From contig NZ_JALXBJ010000012.1 in assembly GCF_026991495.1 (NCBI RefSeq), forward strand, positions 1 through 64,000: 64,000 nt of DNA, read 5' to 3'. Each line of letters opens with the position of its first letter. Within the stretch, counting starts at the first letter, position 1. This document shows positions 3,784-17,389 of the stretch, piece after piece. The translations under genes and the position numbers were made by a program. Below the pieces are notes generated by a model that did no database searches, was not told the origin of the DNA, and saw only the letters and a list, made by a program, of their open reading frames with translations. Origin of the DNA: Thermococcus sp. Lineage in GTDB: Archaea > Methanobacteriota_B > Thermococci > Thermococcales > Thermococcaceae.

Positions 3784-3806
3784 CCCCCACCAGTAACTGG
3801 TGGGGG
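3784..3806. repeat. Perfect palindrome CCCCCACCAGT-A-ACTGGTGGGGG just upstream of the ATPase ATG
   Basis: 11-bp arms, 1-nt centre, read directly from sequence. Confidence 0.85.
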
Positions 3807-3808
3807 GT

Positions 3809-4874
3809 ATGCTCTTCAATCCAAAGCCCAAGAGGAAGAGGGAAGAGCTCTACGACCGGGAGGACGAGCTCTCAACCGTTGAGCGTTCCATCAAAAAAGG
3901 TGTTCCCCTCGTTGTCCTCCTCGGGATAAGGCGCCTCGGGAAGAGTTCACTTCTGAACGTGACCCTGAACGAGAGCCCGGTAAAAAGTGTCAAGATCGAT
4001 GCCAGGAGGGTTTATTCACAGCTCGGGAGCGTTCCCCAGAGCGCACTCGCGGAAGTTATCCTCAAAGGCTACCTCAAGGCCTTCCCCTGTGAGAGGATTA
4101 GGGAGGCAATAAAGGGAATCAGAGGCGTCCGTATTGCCGGAGCAGGCCTTGAACTGAGCGTGGCTAAAGGGGGTGAACCTTTCCGAAGTTCTTGAGCGGA
4201 TAAACTCCCTCGGTGGGAGGTTTGTTATAGCCATAGATGAGGCACAGTACCTGAGGTTCTCCAGCGCCAGGTACGCTGAGCTTATAGCGTGGGCAACCGA
4301 TGAACTTGAAAACGTCAGCTTTATCCTCACCGGTTCTGAAGTTGGCCTTCTTGAGGACTTCCTGCGCATCCACGATCCGGAGTCGGCCCTCTTCGGGAGG
4401 GCACACGTGGAGATAAAGCTGAAGCGTTTTGAGAGACGCCAGAGCCTCGATTTCCTCAGGAAGGGCTTTGATGAGATAGGCCTCGAAGTTAGGGCTGAAG
4501 AACTCGAAGAGGCCGTTGACGAACTCGATGGGATAGTCGGCTGGCTCACCCTCTACGGCTACAACCGCTACCTCGGCCTCTCCCACAGGGAAGCCCTCAA
4601 AAAGCTCAAGGAAGATGCCAAGAGGCTCGTAGTCAGCGAGTTCTCAAAGCTGAAAGAACTTTCGCCCCGCTACGAACTGGCCATGAAGGCTGTAGCAAAC
4701 GGCAGGCACCGCTGGCGGGAAATCAAGGAGGCTGTTGAACTCCTCGAGGGCAAGAAAATAGACGACAAGAACTTCTCCAACGTCCTCAACAACCTCGTCC
4801 GCTACGGCTACCTCGAAAAGACCGTGGAGGGATACTTCATTCCAGACCCATTAGTGGAGCTCGCGTTTAAGTGA
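3809..4874 (+). pseudogene. Archaeal ATPase (STAND/AAA, PF01637-like) with a single-base frameshift near 4168-4172
   Basis: ORFs 3800-4195 (Walker A GIRRLGKSSLLN) and 4173-4874 (Walker B FVIAIDEAQYL) are in different frames. Removing one G from the GGGGG run gives ...LELSVAKG-VNLSEVLERIN... Confidence 0.75.
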
Positions 4875-4877
4875 GGG

Positions 4878-4900
4878 CACCAGTTACTGGGGGTGCTTTT
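4878..4900. terminator. Inverted copy of the CACCAGTTACTGG motif followed by a T-run; putative terminator or element boundary
   Basis: GCACCAGTTACTGGGGGTGCTTTT directly after the ATPase stop; CACCAGTTACTGG is the reverse complement of the core of the 3784-3806 palindrome. Confidence 0.5.
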
Positions 4901-7900
4901 AAACCTCCCTCCAGCCGAGCTTAACCTTGTGGACTATTACGTCAGCTTTCTCCACGAGCTCCGGCGGAATGTCGAGGCCCTCCTCAAGGCGTGCCTTTAT
5001 CTGGTCCTTCAACGCTTTGATTTCCTCGATCACCTCCCCACTCGCGTAGTGAGCGAGGTCGCCGGCGTACTTGTAGGCCCCCGCTAAGTCGCCTATCTTG
5101 AGGTTCACGAGCAGCAGCTCCCCAGTGTAGTAGGCGCTCCTCGACAGATCCCTATCCCCGACAGATTTCTTCAGGCTCCTCCTGTACTCCATTCCTAAGA
5201 ACAGTGCGAGCTCACCCTGAAGCTCGGCTGTGCTCTCGTAGCGCTCCTCCCTCCTCTTGGCGAGGCAACGCATTATAATGTCGTCAAGGGGCTCAGCATC
5301 GGGGTTGAGCTCGCTCGGCCTTTCGGGGGTTTCATAGACTATCGAGGAGCTGACCTCCACAAAGTCCTCGCCCTCGAAGGGAAGCTTCCCCGTCACAAGC
5401 TGGTAGAAGATAACCCCCAACTGCCAGATGTCGGTTCTCTCGTCCGTTGAGCCGAACTTCGATTTGCTTATCTGCTCGGGGGCGGCGTAGTAGGGAGTGA
5501 AGCTCGCGAACGTGCTCGAGCGGCTCTCCTTCAGGACTTTGCTGAGCCCCCAGTCGCTTATCTTCGGGATCCCGCTCTTGAGGAGGATGTTGCTCGGTTT
5601 GAGGTCGCGGTGGATTACCCTCTTCGAGTGTGCGTACTTTAATCCTTCAGCGATGTCAAAGACGATTCTCGCGGCCTCCATTGGCGGGAGATAGCCCCTC
5701 CTCCTCAGGAGGTTTTCAAGCGAGTCCTCGCAGTACTCCATCTCGAAGAACGGAACTGGAAGAATGTTGTAGTCGTAGACCCTCACAATGTTCGGGTGCT
5801 TGAGCTTCGTCCAGTTCTCTATCTCGCGCAGGAAGGACTTTCCAGTTGCCGGGTCGAGACTTATCGGAATTTTTATCGCTACAACTTTTCCGTCCCGCTT
5901 TCTCTTGGCCTTGAAGACCCTCGCAAAGCCGCCTTTGCCTATGAAGTCGACGTCGGTGTAGAGCTCAGCCAGCTCCAGCGGGAATGTCTTGGGCGTCGTC
6001 GGGGATGGTGTGAACTGGGCTGGGGTGTAGGCAGGAGCGGCCGGAGTGGATGGCTGGACAGGGGGTGCAATAGCTTTTTCCTCAACTTCAACGGGGATAA
6101 CCTTCTCGGCCTCGATTTCGAGGCCGTTTACGATGGCTTTAATCTTGATTCTGAAGTCGAATTTTCCGGCGTACTTGGGCTTTACGGTAATGCTCTTGGA
6201 GACCTTTTGACCCCTCTTGAGCTCGGGGAACTCAAGGTTTTCCTCCTCAAGCTCGAAGAAGTCGTTCCCGGAGAGGTCAAGGGTTGCCTTGAGGGAGTCG
6301 GCGAGGTTGTTGGTAAGGGTAAGCTTGACAGTCGATTCCAAGTCCTCAATAAATCTGGGGACTGAGGTGGAAAGCTCCCCTGGGATAACATTGACCAAAA
6401 CTTTCTTGGCTTCTTCCTTTGCCTCTTTTGAACCCTCCTTAATAGCCTGATTCAAGAACCTTAACTTCTCTTTGTAATCCCTTGTTTTGCTTGCAAGGGT
6501 TAAGTAAAGCTCTCCAAGCTCTCCAGATGAGACAAGCCTTGCATCTACTTTTGTCTTGTAATCAATCGCTGGCAATTCAAATACAACATCAAACCATCCC
6601 CACCCTAAATCGCTTTTTTTCTGCGCTCGAATGACCTTCACAATACTTTCACCGGCTTTAAGCTTCAATGGTATCTCATTCGCTGGGGAGGAAAAGTGCC
6701 TATCATTTTCGGGCTTCACTTTGATATCCACGTCGGGGATGCCGCGGTTTGATGCAACTATAAAGACGTCAGCTTCATTCTTTTTTTCATCCCCCTTTGA
6801 AATAAGGACGCTAAAATCAATTATGAAATCAATCAGGGTTGTATCAAACTCTTCCCCAAGCTTTTTCCTTGCTCTGGTTAGGTAATCCCAGACTTTTTGG
6901 TACTCTCTCCTTCCAATGGCCCTCCAGAAGTTTGTGAGTTCCTCAACTTCAGAATCATACTGAACCCTGATCTTGGTGCTCCCTTCCACTATGGAAGTTT
7001 TCACAGGGACGCCTTCTATTGGCTCAAAGACCTTCTTCTTTACCTTGACTTTCTTGGGGACTCTAATCGTCTTCGGGACTTTCACAGTCTTTTTGACTTT
7101 CTTCTTCCTGAGTAAGCCAACCGTTTCCCAGACTTCTTTCTCTTCGTAGATTGTCTCCTCCTTAAAAGTCTCTTCTTCAACCTCGATCTCTTTCTCTATT
7201 CCGGATGCTGTCACCGTAACGTCCGAGTCAGCAACTTTTGCATTGCTCTCCATTACTATTGCGTTTGAATCACGGGAGAACCCCTCCAAATCTCCATCCG
7301 GCGGGAGACGGAGAACCCAGATATCCCACCATTTTGACCCAAAACTTGCTGTATTGCCCGCTATTATAATATTGCCTCCCTCATCCAAGAGGACAGATGC
7401 AGCCTCATCATTACGGCTTCCTCCATAGGTTTTCTGCCATTTAACGTTCCCGTTCTCGTCAAGCCTGAGAACCCAAGCGTCCCTGTCACCAGCGCCGAAG
7501 CTGTAAGTCCCTCCAGCTACGATAATATCACCATTATCAGCGATAGCAATTGCATTGGCCCACTCATTATCGCTTCCTCCGTAGGTTTTCTGCCACTTCA
7601 CGTTCCCATCAGCGTCAAGCCTGAGAACCCAAACGTCTCCCAAACCAGGGCCGAAGCTCCGAGTGGAGCCGGCCACGATAACGTCACCATTAGGAGCGAT
7701 TGCAACCGCGTTAGCCTCATCCAAGTAGCTTCCTCCGTAAGTCTTCTGCCACTTCACGTTACCCTCTTTATCCAGCCTAAGAACCCAAGCATCCCTACCA
7801 CCAGCGCCGAAGCTCCGAGTGTAACCGGCCACGATAACATCACCGTTGGGAGCAATCTTCACGTCGTTGAAGCCGTCGTCTTTTTCACCGCCGTAGGTCT

Positions 7901-8366
7901 TGAACCACTTAACTTTCCCGTCCCCGTCTAAGCGGGCGACGAAGGCGTCCTTTTTGTCTTTCTTCTCCACGTAGCCCGCGACGATTACATCGCCGTTCCT
8001 ACCCATGACAACTGCCTTAGCTTCTCCAAGCCCGTAGGTTTTAGCCCATTTTACATTTCCCTCCTCATCAAGCCTCAGAACCCCAACGGTGTAGTTATCA
8101 TTGGAATCCCTAATGGAACCAGATACAATTATATCCCCCTTTGGGGCCACTGCAAGGGAGTAAAAATTGCTCCCCCTGTATGACTTTTGCCATTTGACTT
8201 CTCCTTTTGTGGTAAGGCGTGTTATACAGCCCCCAATGACATCTCCACCAGCTATTAATACGTCCCCTTTATACATTGTGGCATCATGGACAGCCACCCA
8301 GTTGTATGTCTTCACCCAGTACGACACGATGACCACCACCGGTGATTGTCCTTCAATCTTGGGCAT
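4899..8366 (-). CDS. Multidomain beta-propeller / Ig-like / Hanks-type Ser/Thr protein kinase
   Basis: N-terminal ~52-aa repeats (DAWVLRLDENGNVKWQKTYGGS...NGDVIVAG); kinase motifs GKGGFARVF, VAIKI, HRDLKPSNILL, SDWGLSK, APEQ, DIWQLGVIFYQLVTGKLPF. Confidence 0.9.
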   Translation of the reverse strand: MPKIEGQSPVVVIVSYWVKTYNWVAVHDATMYKGDVLIAGGDVIGGCITRLTTKGEVKWQKSYRGSNFYSLAVAPKGDIIVSGSIRDSNDNYTVGVLRLDEEGNVKWAKTYGLGEAKAVVMGRNGDVIVAGYVEKKDKKDAFVARLDGDGKVKWFKTYGGEKDDGFNDVKIAPNGDVIVAGYTRSFGAGGRDAWVLRLDKEGNVKWQKTYGGSYLDEANAVAIAPNGDVIVAGSTRSFGPGLGDVWVLRLDADGNVKWQKTYGGSDNEWANAIAIADNGDIIVAGGTYSFGAGDRDAWVLRLDENGNVKWQKTYGGSRNDEAASVLLDEGGNIIIAGNTASFGSKWWDIWVLRLPPDGDLEGFSRDSNAIVMESNAKVADSDVTVTASGIEKEIEVEEETFKEETIYEEKEVWETVGLLRKKKVKKTVKVPKTIRVPKKVKVKKKVFEPIEGVPVKTSIVEGSTKIRVQYDSEVEELTNFWRAIGRREYQKVWDYLTRARKKLGEEFDTTLIDFIIDFSVLISKGDEKKNEADVFIVASNRGIPDVDIKVKPENDRHFSSPANEIPLKLKAGESIVKVIRAQKKSDLGWGWFDVVFELPAIDYKTKVDARLVSSGELGELYLTLASKTRDYKEKLRFLNQAIKEGSKEAKEEAKKVLVNVIPGELSTSVPRFIEDLESTVKLTLTNNLADSLKATLDLSGNDFFELEEENLEFPELKRGQKVSKSITVKPKYAGKFDFRIKIKAIVNGLEIEAEKVIPVEVEEKAIAPPVQPSTPAAPAYTPAQFTPSPTTPKTFPLELAELYTDVDFIGKGGFARVFKAKRKRDGKVVAIKIPISLDPATGKSFLREIENWTKLKHPNIVRVYDYNILPVPFFEMEYCEDSLENLLRRRGYLPPMEAARIVFDIAEGLKYAHSKRVIHRDLKPSNILLKSGIPKISDWGLSKVLKESRSSTFASFTPYYAAPEQISKSKFGSTDERTDIWQLGVIFYQLVTGKLPFEGEDFVEVSSSIVYETPERPSELNPDAEPLDDIIMRCLAKRREERYESTAELQGELALFLGMEYRRSLKKSVGDRDLSRSAYYTGELLLVNLKIGDLAGAYKYAGDLAHYASGEVIEEIKALKDQIKARLEEGLDIPPELVEKADVIVHKVKLGWREV
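7430..8300 (-). repeat. Intragenic ~156-bp (52-aa) propeller repeats, about seven units
   Basis: Recurring ttctgccacttcacgtt..cctgagaaccca and the protein repeat W(Q)KTYGGS; the central units are most alike. Confidence 0.8.
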
Positions 8367-8470
8367 CGAGGTATTTAGAAATTTCGGTTAGGCGCAAGGC
8401 TCCCATTCTGTTGCTTCCTTTAATCGAAACGCATTTATATATAATCGTGCTTAGATATAATGGTGGTTAG

Positions 8471-9859
8471 ATGAAGTTCATAGACCGCGAGCGAGAGATG
8501 GAGATTCTTGAGAGGGAGTGGGAAAACAGGCCGTCCTTTGTGGTGCTCTACGGCAGGAGGAGGATCGGAAAGACGAGGCTCTTAAGGGAATTCTCAAAGG
8601 GAAAGAGGACTTTCTTCTTCACCTTTCCGGAGGCGGTTAAAACCGTTCAGATGGCCGAGTTCAAGAAGGCCCTCTCGGAGTTCCTGGGAGATGGACTTAT
8701 CCTCAAGCTTGAAACGGACAACTGGCTCGACCTTCTCATTTACCTCGCCGAAAGGATTGATGACTCGCTCGTAGTCCTCGACGAGTTCACCTATGCGATA
8801 AAATCCGACAGAAAGATCCTCAGCGATCTCCAGAGGGTCTGGGATGGGATTTTGAGCGAGAAAAACGTCATGCTCGTCCTTTCTGGCTCGCTCCTTGGAA
8901 TGATGTGGGACGACGTTCTAAGCCACGCCTCACCGCTCTACGGCAGGAGGACGAGGAGCATCCATTTAAATCCCCTCGGCTACACCAGCGCCCTAAAGTT
9001 CTTCAAAGACCCTGAGTACGGGATTAAAGCTTACATGCTCGTCGGCGGGATTCCACCTTACCTGAGACTCGCCTCGCGCTACGAAAGCGTCGAAGCCTTT
9101 GTAAAGGAGGAGTTCCTGAGCGACTACGGCTTCTTCTACGACGAACCCTACGTCATCCTCACTGAGGAACTTAGGGAGCTGAAAACCTACTTCTCCATTC
9201 TCCGGGCAATGGCGAGTGGAAACAGACGCCTTGAGGAGATTGCCAACTTCGTAGGCCTCCCCGCGGGGAGTGTCTACCCCTACGTGGAGACCCTCATGCG
9301 GCTCGGGCTGATTGAGAAGGAAACCCCCATCTTGGGAAGCAGGAAGGCAACCCTCTACAGCATAGCCGATCCCTCTCTGCTCACGTGGTTCACTCTCACC
9401 TATCCCCAGCTCGATCAGATTTCCCTCGGGACTGCTAAGTTAGATGACCTCTATAAGGTCTTCCCGGTTCGCTTCGAGGAACTTGCGAGGGAGTTCTTAG
9501 TCGTAAAGAGGCCAATTGAGTTTGAGAAAATCGGCAGGTGGTGGTATAAGGGGGAGGAGATAGACATCGTGGCGATAGACGGGAGAACCGCCTATTTGGT
9601 AGAGGCCACGTGGAAGGATCTGGGCAGGAAGGACGCAGGAAGGGTTTTAAAGGCACTCGAAAGGAAATCAAAGCTCGTTAGGTTCGATGGGGGGTTTAAA
9701 CTCGGACTCATCGCGAGGAAAGTCGAGGGGAAGGAGGAACTCAGGAGCAGGGGTTACACCGTCTGGGATATGGAGGACGTTCTGAGAGGTGGCGGGCCAT
9801 CCTCACACCCATCTTCCAATCAATTTTTAAGCTCGGGCGCCTTAGCTAAGTTAAGGTGA
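8471..9859 (+). CDS. Archaeal ATPase with DUF234-type C-terminus
   Basis: MKFIDREREMEILEREW, P-loop YGRRRIGKTRLLREF, VVLDEFTYAI, C-terminal nuclease-like EEIDIVAIDGRTAYLVEATWK. Confidence 0.85.
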   Translation: MKFIDREREMEILEREWENRPSFVVLYGRRRIGKTRLLREFSKGKRTFFFTFPEAVKTVQMAEFKKALSEFLGDGLILKLETDNWLDLLIYLAERIDDSLVVLDEFTYAIKSDRKILSDLQRVWDGILSEKNVMLVLSGSLLGMMWDDVLSHASPLYGRRTRSIHLNPLGYTSALKFFKDPEYGIKAYMLVGGIPPYLRLASRYESVEAFVKEEFLSDYGFFYDEPYVILTEELRELKTYFSILRAMASGNRRLEEIANFVGLPAGSVYPYVETLMRLGLIEKETPILGSRKATLYSIADPSLLTWFTLTYPQLDQISLGTAKLDDLYKVFPVRFEELAREFLVVKRPIEFEKIGRWWYKGEEIDIVAIDGRTAYLVEATWKDLGRKDAGRVLKALERKSKLVRFDGGFKLGLIARKVEGKEELRSRGYTVWDMEDVLRGGGPSSHPSSNQFLSSGALAKLR

Positions 9860-14432: not shown

Positions 14433-15035
14433 TTAGGCTGGTTTTGAGCGCCGCACTATGGGGAGGACTTCCTCCTCCAGCCGCTTCGCCCTCTCCTCAT
14501 CCAGGTAATCCATTACACCGCTCTTCTCCTTGAACATCCTTGGCAGAAGGTGATACAGCGCCACGTGCGCCTGGTGTATGGCTTCAATCTCTTCTGGCTT
14601 GGCGTAGAGATCCAGATAGCCGAGCGGGTCTGGGTCATCCACATACATCTTTTCAGCCGCTTCATACGGCGATAATTTTTCTCCCCTCCTCCGCATATCT
14701 TCCCACGCCCTCTTCGTTATCTCTGCCCACGCTTTCGAAGCTTTCACGAATACGGGTGCCAGATCTGCCAACATCTTCGCATGCTCCTCTGGGATGCCAG
14801 AACGTTTCAGCTCATCTTCGAGTTCATATTGGAACCTTTTCATCTTTTCCTTATTCTGTAAGAACTCGTCAAGGCTCTTGAGCCGTGTGAGGGTGTCGTT
14901 ATTCACAAATTCTCTTATCTCCGTAATTGGGCTATCTCTCCATTTTTTCTTGGCTTCCTCTTCATAATCTTTTTCGAAGGGTAGTATTGCGTATTGAATT
15001 ACATCTGCCTTATACGACGGCAGTTTATACTTCAT
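14433..15035 (-). CDS. Hypothetical protein, C-terminus related to the 15782-17389 product (possible fragment)
   Basis: IHQAHVALYHLLPRMFKEKSGVMDYLDEERAKRLEEEVLPIVRR vs IHKMHRIIYELTKPVSRVVFERPSGVEEFLDEREKEEVEREVQELLKR. Confidence 0.55.
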   Translation of the reverse strand: MKYKLPSYKADVIQYAILPFEKDYEEEAKKKWRDSPITEIREFVNNDTLTRLKSLDEFLQNKEKMKRFQYELEDELKRSGIPEEHAKMLADLAPVFVKASKAWAEITKRAWEDMRRRGEKLSPYEAAEKMYVDDPDPLGYLDLYAKPEEIEAIHQAHVALYHLLPRMFKEKSGVMDYLDEERAKRLEEEVLPIVRRSKPA

Positions 15036-15781: not shown

Positions 15782-17389
15782 TCACACCCGATCCCTCGTT
15801 CTCTTCACGTGCGTGAATCCGACTACCTTGTATCCTGGGCGCCTGAAGTGCTTTTTCAGGAGCTCGTACATTTTTTCGGTGGCTTCTTCCTTGCTCCAGT
15901 CTATACCGTACTTCTCCGGATTCTTTGCCATGTCTTCTACCAGTTTTTCTGCCTCTGCCAACTGCACCTCACTCCCTGCAATGTCAATTACTGCATGATC
16001 TGTGGTGTAGTCTGGCAGGTGGAGCATCACCTCGAATTTGTGGCTACGGATTGAATGGGCAAGAATATCAAGAGCCTCTTGTATGTGCTTCTGGTTTGTT
16101 TTGCTTTTCTCTTCACGTATTTTACTTAAAATTTTGTCTGCCGCAGTGCGCACGTCCTTACTCTTCTGTAGTTCCTCTCTATATTCTTTGAGTAGCTCTC
16201 TCGCCTTTTGGATGCCCTCTTTTAGTTTGTGCGGGTCTGTGACGCCCTCATCTGCGAGCGCGTGGAACATGTATATCGCGTAGGGTGGCACTGCCTCAGG
16301 ATAGAGGTTCGGTATCTCCTTCGGGTGCTTGTGTGGTGGCAAGACCACAATCTGTTCTCCATTTCTTATTATTGGCAGGCCAGTTTCCGGGTGCACCTCT
16401 GCTCTTTTCGAGTCCACGTCCTCAATCCTAATTACGTCCTTCTCTCTTCTGACCTCCAGCGGATTGCGTTTTGCTGGCGGTGCTGGCGCTCTTTGTGGCG
16501 TCACCTTTGTCGTGGTTTGCACTGGCTGCGGTTTCTGTACTTCTCGTCTTTGTGGTGCTGTTTCAGGCTCCTGAAGCCTTTTCAGGAGCTCCTGTACCTC
16601 TCTTTCTACTTCTTCCTTTTCTCTTTCGTCCAGGAACTCTTCTACTCCGCTGGGCCGTTCAAACACCACGCGGGAAACAGGCTTCGTCAGCTCGTATATT
16701 ATTCTGTGCATCTTATGTATCTTCTTTATCGCTTCCGGCCCGAAGAGCTGGTACACCTCCATCCGCGGGTCAGCAGTTCCTCTGCTGATATGATTCATAA
16801 AGAGCCTAGCTGTAAGTTGCCATTTCTTCCGTTTGTCGTTCCAGTATATATGTGTATGCACGTGTTTTGCATACTTTCCGATGAGATCTGCCGTTTCAAT
16901 GGCGTGCGGGAGCAGGATTTCCAGCTCACGTATCATCTGCTTCTTCTTCTCAAGAGGTGCATCTGAAAACGCCCAGTCGTGCAATATTGCCTGTTTCGCG
17001 TCTTCCAATGCCTTCTTCGGGTCCAAGTTCTCCCAGTCGTGGAGATACATTCCCAGGCGCCCACCTGCTAGCAGCGGTTCGCCATTGTGTTTAACTGCTG
17101 CCGCGAATATTACGTTTCCGGCCTCTGACCTGTGCTTCAGCTGGAGCCACGTCTTTATGTAGTGCCTAAGGATGCCGTAGGGAACGCTGTCGTACATATC
17201 TCCTACAGCATCTTGTGTTGCAGGACTATCAATTTTGTCCCAAATGCTTCGGATTCCTATTACGGACTCTTTTTTCACGGGCGGCAGTAACAGTCCTCTC
17301 CCGTCAGGTTTTGTTCTAAGTTCCTCTGCAGCGAGGTACGCATCATGCTCTTTTCCCTCGGACACTTCGCTATACGGGAACGGCACCAT
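15782..17389 (-). CDS. Hypothetical 535-aa protein of unknown family, accessory island
   Basis: Long AT-richer ORF, MVPFPYSEVSEGKEHDAYLAAEELRTKPDGRGLLLPPVKKES..., Pro/Gln-rich mid-region, helical C-terminus. No family recognised. Confidence 0.7.
   Translation of the reverse strand: MVPFPYSEVSEGKEHDAYLAAEELRTKPDGRGLLLPPVKKESVIGIRSIWDKIDSPATQDAVGDMYDSVPYGILRHYIKTWLQLKHRSEAGNVIFAAAVKHNGEPLLAGGRLGMYLHDWENLDPKKALEDAKQAILHDWAFSDAPLEKKKQMIRELEILLPHAIETADLIGKYAKHVHTHIYWNDKRKKWQLTARLFMNHISRGTADPRMEVYQLFGPEAIKKIHKMHRIIYELTKPVSRVVFERPSGVEEFLDEREKEEVEREVQELLKRLQEPETAPQRREVQKPQPVQTTTKVTPQRAPAPPAKRNPLEVRREKDVIRIEDVDSKRAEVHPETGLPIIRNGEQIVVLPPHKHPKEIPNLYPEAVPPYAIYMFHALADEGVTDPHKLKEGIQKARELLKEYREELQKSKDVRTAADKILSKIREEKSKTNQKHIQEALDILAHSIRSHKFEVMLHLPDYTTDHAVIDIAGSEVQLAEAEKLVEDMAKNPEKYGIDWSKEEATEKMYELLKKHFRRPGYKVVGFTHVKRTRDRV

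Follow-up and report, generated by a model that had tools for sequence, protein, structure and literature searches.

Introduction

In many genomes the ESCRT loci of the euryarchaeal "main clade" include STK and STP genes (Makarova et al. 2024, PMC10936438), and the STKs are there described as typically having an N-terminal transmembrane (TM) segment, along with Ig-like repeats and, at the C-terminus, a helical domain that resembles PCI. The legend to Fig. 3 of that paper names PQQ and PEGA repeats, and propeller forms of the STK may already be drawn in that figure (PMC10936438). A second protein of an ESCRT locus, Halo_adaptin, carries an N-terminal WD40/PQQ-like propeller together with Ig-like domains; it belongs to another ESCRT clade and has another order, and no kinase is mentioned for it in the text (PMC10936438). 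For Thermococcales, a 2021 review held that ESCRT-III is absent and that the mechanism of vesicle budding is unknown (PMC10117752).

Fusion of a propeller to a kinase is, per se, already known in bacteria, as PkwA of Thermomonospora curvata illustrates. We know of no link between PkwA and ESCRT. Bacterial STKs of the PknB/PknD type, for their part, contain a TM segment and place their sensor outside the cell.

Here we describe a protein encoded at positions 4899-8366 of the window, the whole stretch of 64,000 nucleotides of Thermococcus sp. DNA that was analysed. A sequence-only reading had proposed it as part of an undescribed signalling system. It belongs instead to a known kinase family, one that in heat-loving archaea goes together with the membrane-remodelling ESCRT machinery, and STKs that combine Ig and helical-tail domains with a link to ESCRT have already been published (PMC10936438); within that family the protein is unusual in being soluble and relocated. 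With the main-clade ESCRT STK the protein shares phylogenetic range, an Ig-like domain preceding a Hanks kinase and a C-terminal helical domain; it is also akin in sequence to STKs of a locus in which, as described for the main clade, these are linked to Vps4, ESCRT-III and STP (PMC10936438). It differs from that typically membrane-associated kinase in being soluble, in its N-terminal propeller and in lying outside an ESCRT locus. The N-terminal TM segment is missing both from this protein and from propeller paralogues adjacent to Vps4, which argues that the segment is usual and not defining for main-clade STKs; position in an ESCRT locus is likewise usual and not strictly defining, since the paper speaks of "many genomes" (PMC10936438). 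PkwA, whose WD40 domain has been studied (PMC6113231, which cites Janda 1996), is similar in joining a Ser/Thr kinase and a propeller in one prokaryotic chain, but is bacterial and carries its propeller C-terminally. The kinase domain resembles that of PknB/PknD-type STKs, PknB being nearest in the PDB, whereas the TM segment that separates sensor from kinase in a PknD-like receptor is lacking.

Domain architecture

The ORF starts with ATG and encodes 1155 aa on the minus strand, with limits at exactly 4899 and 8366. The features of the locus are as follows.

4899..8366, minus strand: propeller / Ig-like / Hanks Ser-Thr kinase / helical-tail protein, 1155 aa (ORF list, Pfam, NCBIfam, AlphaFold2)
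7299..8318, minus strand: seven-bladed beta-propeller, aa 17-356, delta-60/SBBP-type blades (TIGR02608, blade list, AlphaFold2, Foldseek)
6957..7298, minus strand: K/V/E-rich linker, aa 357-470, modelled as two long low-confidence strands (sequence, AlphaFold2)
6375..6956, minus strand: variable middle segment, aa 471-664, with a helical hairpin at 629-664 (paralogue comparison, AlphaFold2)
6081..6374, minus strand: Ig-like domain, aa 665-762 (AlphaFold2 of the segment, Foldseek)
5979..6080, minus strand: Pro/Thr-rich linker, aa 763-796, pLDDT low at 766-790 (sequence, AlphaFold2)
5202..5978, minus strand: Hanks Ser/Thr kinase domain, aa 797-1055 (Pfam, motifs, phmmer, Foldseek)
4902..5201, minus strand: C-terminal helical tail, aa 1056-1155, kept in paralogues (AlphaFold2, paralogue alignment)
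8434..8444, minus strand: TATA-like element TTATATATAAA, ~70 nt upstream of the kinase start codon (read from sequence)
8471..9859, plus strand: divergent neighbour, archaeal ATPase_2 + DUF234
3800..4874, plus strand: convergent neighbour, ATPase_2 gene split over two frames

The fusion of all these domains in a single chain, first proposed from the translation, was borne out by Pfam (a single Pkinase domain at 803-1046, E 8e-52), by NCBIfam (delta-60 repeats, TIGR02608, E 1e-23, 82.7 bits, above the cut-off of 76.5) and by AlphaFold2, which from an 18-row alignment confidently modelled the propeller (~22-356), the Ig-like sheet (665-762), the kinase (797-1055) and the helical tail (1056-1154), leaving the K/V linker and most of 443-636 at low confidence. 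Modelled separately, the Ig-like segment reached a mean pLDDT of 83.6. The propeller does have seven repeats, but not of a uniform ~52 aa: blades start at residues 17, 59, 107, 154, 206, 258 and 310 and measure 42-54 aa. The order of domains had also been read correctly, except that the low-confidence helical/beta segment at 471-664, between linker and Ig-like domain, was overlooked; this segment is mostly missing from the Vps4-adjacent paralogue.

For the whole model, the best Foldseek matches were CylK (propeller; an alignment of ~395 columns, taken as covering it) and PknB (kinase). The Ig-like domain matched many Ig/MG-type domains, BBSome chains included, a generic result, and adaptin was absent among the 50 matches listed. 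The kinase has a full fold, with the VAIK Lys, HRD Asp, DxG Asp and APE motif, and its motifs are intact (VAIK at 829-832, HRDLKPSN at 919-926, DWG at 938-940); PknB was also the best phmmer match of this domain. Bud32/RIO identity was rejected, Bud32 models scoring far under the Pkinase match. The anti-phage kinase systems MADS, PD-T4-6 and BREX PglW were also set aside, their matches being confined to the kinase domain and falling under NCBIfam cut-offs where these are given; no MADS or BREX genes were recognised among the annotated neighbours. Neither a TM segment nor a signal peptide was found, since the top 19-residue hydropathy window scores 1.07, and the propeller is accordingly predicted to be cytoplasmic, as had been surmised.

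The kinase family and the ESCRT cluster of the genome

A profile search of the contigs yielded 13 Pkinase matches in the genome, 12 of them above the cut-off; those on contigs C85 and C88 are partial and may be Bud32/RIO-like. These genome-wide figures rest on searches; the one contig scan used patterns from the kinase region. Most of the ~12 Hanks kinase domains sit in one 48-kb cluster on contig C58, where seven genes on one strand encode eight kinase domains and are accompanied by a Snf7-like ESCRT-III with a neighbouring paralogue, two AAA ATPases with Vps4_C, a PP2C phosphatase, a pentapeptide-repeat/ion-channel protein and several ATPases. The generalization that archaeal kinases are mostly RIO/Bud32 thus misses the Hanks kinases of this very genome and a family that is multi-copy across Thermococcaceae.

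Five kinases of the genome share 48-64% identity with the Ig-kinase-tail portion of the 4899-8366 protein, and four of the five are encoded in the C58 cluster. Members of the family take several forms: a soluble propeller protein; a signal-like N-terminus with a propeller or PEGA and a TM segment; and a short TM-Ig-kinase. The nearest soluble propeller paralogues (C91 and C58_27419) lack signal peptide and TM segment; in two others (C58_42084 and C53_5110) a hydrophobic segment lies at the N-terminus and a second TM segment ahead of the kinase.

Several other proteins of these clusters deserve mention. The pentapeptide-repeat protein, which ends in an ion-channel domain of two TM segments, lies between a propeller-STK and Vps4 both in C58 (L010:10120-11262) and at L101:2859-3986, and its gene recurs in the ESCRT clusters of several other genomes. 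At L010:1049-3418 (C58 21049-23418), a 789-aa protein contains two tandem kinase domains, one or both of which may be atypical since a strict HRD motif was not found. A 1627-aa protein of the C58 ESCRT cluster (L011:9140-14023) has a signal-like N-terminus and gave matches to laminin-G-like, PEGA, TPR and WD40-type propeller sequences.

Co-occurrence with ESCRT-III in Thermococcaceae

Across 94 Thermococcaceae genomes the kinase profile returned E values of either <1e-90, scored as presence, or ~1e-4, with very few intermediate. An ESCRT-III relative is encoded in 39 of the 94, nearly always with the kinase family, which is at variance with the absence of ESCRT-III from Thermococcales asserted in the review (PMC10117752). 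Both were present in 38 genomes, the kinase only in 7, ESCRT-III only in 1 and neither in 48; at a completeness of at least 90% the corresponding counts are 34, 2, 1 and 38. Five of the seven kinase-only genomes are less than 90% complete, the other two being G021 and G057, in which ESCRT-III was undetected. The Fisher p for co-occurrence (5e-18) overstates significance, because the genomes are related to one another.

Linkage points in the same direction for part of the family. In the named loci (Thermococcus, Geoglobus, Archaeoglobus, Methanosarcinaceae and others) kinase relatives often adjoin Vps4, ESCRT-III or PP2C, and soluble propeller-STKs directly precede Vps4, or do so by a few co-directional genes, in five genomes (G033, G019, G030, G051 and the present one). 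No ESCRT gene lies beside 4899-8366, which stands solo on a contig other than that of the ESCRT cluster. A 22-row tree placed this protein and its orthologue in a supported clade of dispersed propeller-STKs (95/99), separate from that of the Vps4-adjacent propeller-STKs (96/99), and the dispersed clade, as distinct from the soluble propeller-STKs just upstream of Vps4, looks to be new. In G033 a dispersed propeller-STK directly adjoins egsA in divergent orientation; 4899-8366 is arranged likewise, with one ATPase gene between. The architecture is common in Thermococcales but not characterised: literature searches found no experimental work on Thermococcales kinases of this family.

Recoding of a conserved in-frame TGA in related kinase and ESCRT-III matches was considered and rejected, since the genes, once re-aligned, contained no internal stop; most likely the matches extended beyond the natural stop. 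A contig labelled Dehalococcoidia bacterium (L063) carries a kinase relative with Vps4- and ESCRT-III-like neighbours, reflecting contamination or transfer.

Divergence from an orthologue

The ~15 kb around the kinase gene are colinear, at 93% DNA identity, with a locus of an independent Thermococcus MAG (L046, WAKU01000069.1), and this disposes of the concern that the ORF is a chimera produced by misassembly. The propeller is changing faster than the kinase: identity to the L046 orthologue is 84.8% in the former and 95.8% in the latter, the nonsynonymous/synonymous ratio of codon differences, taken from raw counts and no test of selection, is 0.93 and 0.27, and the orthologue has six blades in place of seven. 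Ratios are high in the middle segment and the short tail as well, on few changes.

Discussion

We favour, with about even confidence, the view that the STK family serving the euryarchaeal main-clade ESCRT system includes the 4899-8366 protein as a soluble, dispersed paralogue, which would act by a kinase-adaptor mechanism. This is supported by the identity of its Ig-kinase-tail to kinases residing mostly in the ESCRT cluster, by the co-occurrence of the family with ESCRT-III, by the related soluble propeller-STKs that precede Vps4, by its place in a supported clade of dispersed propeller-STKs, by the named archaeal loci in which kinase relatives adjoin Vps4, ESCRT-III or PP2C, by the STK and STP genes placed in main-clade ESCRT loci in the literature (PMC10936438), and by the faster change of the propeller, with one blade fewer in the orthologue. 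It is weakened by the location of the gene outside the ESCRT cluster, by the two genomes, at least 90% complete, with the kinase and undetected ESCRT-III, and by the generic Ig match that did not single out adaptin. The protein, whose kinase activity and cytosolic location are predicted, would then most likely be a phosphorylating cargo or adaptor protein of the ESCRT system. A cytosolic protein, either cargo or partner, could be recognised by the variable surface of the propeller; docking of the kinase on the ESCRT assembly or on other STKs may fall to the Ig-like domain and the helical tail; the docked kinase might then phosphorylate cargo or components of the assembly, with possible consequences for membrane budding; and the PP2C phosphatase of the cluster would undo the phosphorylation. 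A kinase that is soluble and has an exchangeable domain for recognition would offer a tractable way into target choice and regulation in ESCRT. It is conceivable, if distinctly unlikely, that the soluble propeller-Ig-kinases form a phosphorylating coat/cargo-adaptor layer of Thermococcales ESCRT, propeller plus Ig occurring together as in some eukaryotic coats, and that dispersed paralogues such as 4899-8366 confer different cargo specificities.

An alternative of rather low probability is that, independently of ESCRT, dispersed propeller-STKs work with adjoining ATPase_2/AAA_14 NTPases, with the propeller as sensor of a signal from an invader or from damage. It stays alive because genes for ATPase_2 or AAA_14/DUF4143 flank most dispersed copies: an ATPase gene lies on both sides of 4899-8366, overlaps the start of the kinase gene in C91 and L092, and follows it in L091 and L096. 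The neighbouring ATPases match the PADLOC candidate families PDC-S27 and PDC-S01, and fast change and blade loss in the propeller would suit such a sensor. However, the partners are of two differing families in varying orientation, the L098 copy has no adjoining ATPase, and the kinase's own PADLOC matches are limited to its kinase domain, the PDC families being themselves candidates. The adjacent ATPases pointed out in the sequence-only reading are real, but such families are widespread in the genome, with 23 and 25 overlapping matches to ATPase_2 and AAA_14/DUF4143, respectively; moreover, the convergent gene at 3800-4874, intact in L046 (354 aa), is split here by a frameshift or sequencing error.

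We are similarly doubtful that the gene is a redundant, dispersed duplicate of an ESCRT-cluster propeller-STK, one that stays active but plays no role of its own and is subject to gain and loss. STK copy number does differ widely among genomes, several complete genomes have copies outside clusters, and the propeller is under less constraint than the kinase; against this, the kinase domain has changed mostly synonymously between species, two species retain the locus, and in G033, too, egsA has a dispersed propeller-STK beside it. A surface sensor with its propeller outside the cell, a topology suggested by the hydrophobic and TM segments of C58_42084 and C53_5110, is highly improbable, and an extracellular propeller was rejected for the 4899-8366 protein, since hydropathy reveals no signal peptide or TM segment in it, these being absent from C91 and C58_27419 also.

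Elsewhere in the window, the proteins encoded at 14433-15035 and 15782-17389 gave no Pfam match, and a related 289-aa ORF in L046 suggests that they form a small lineage-specific family.
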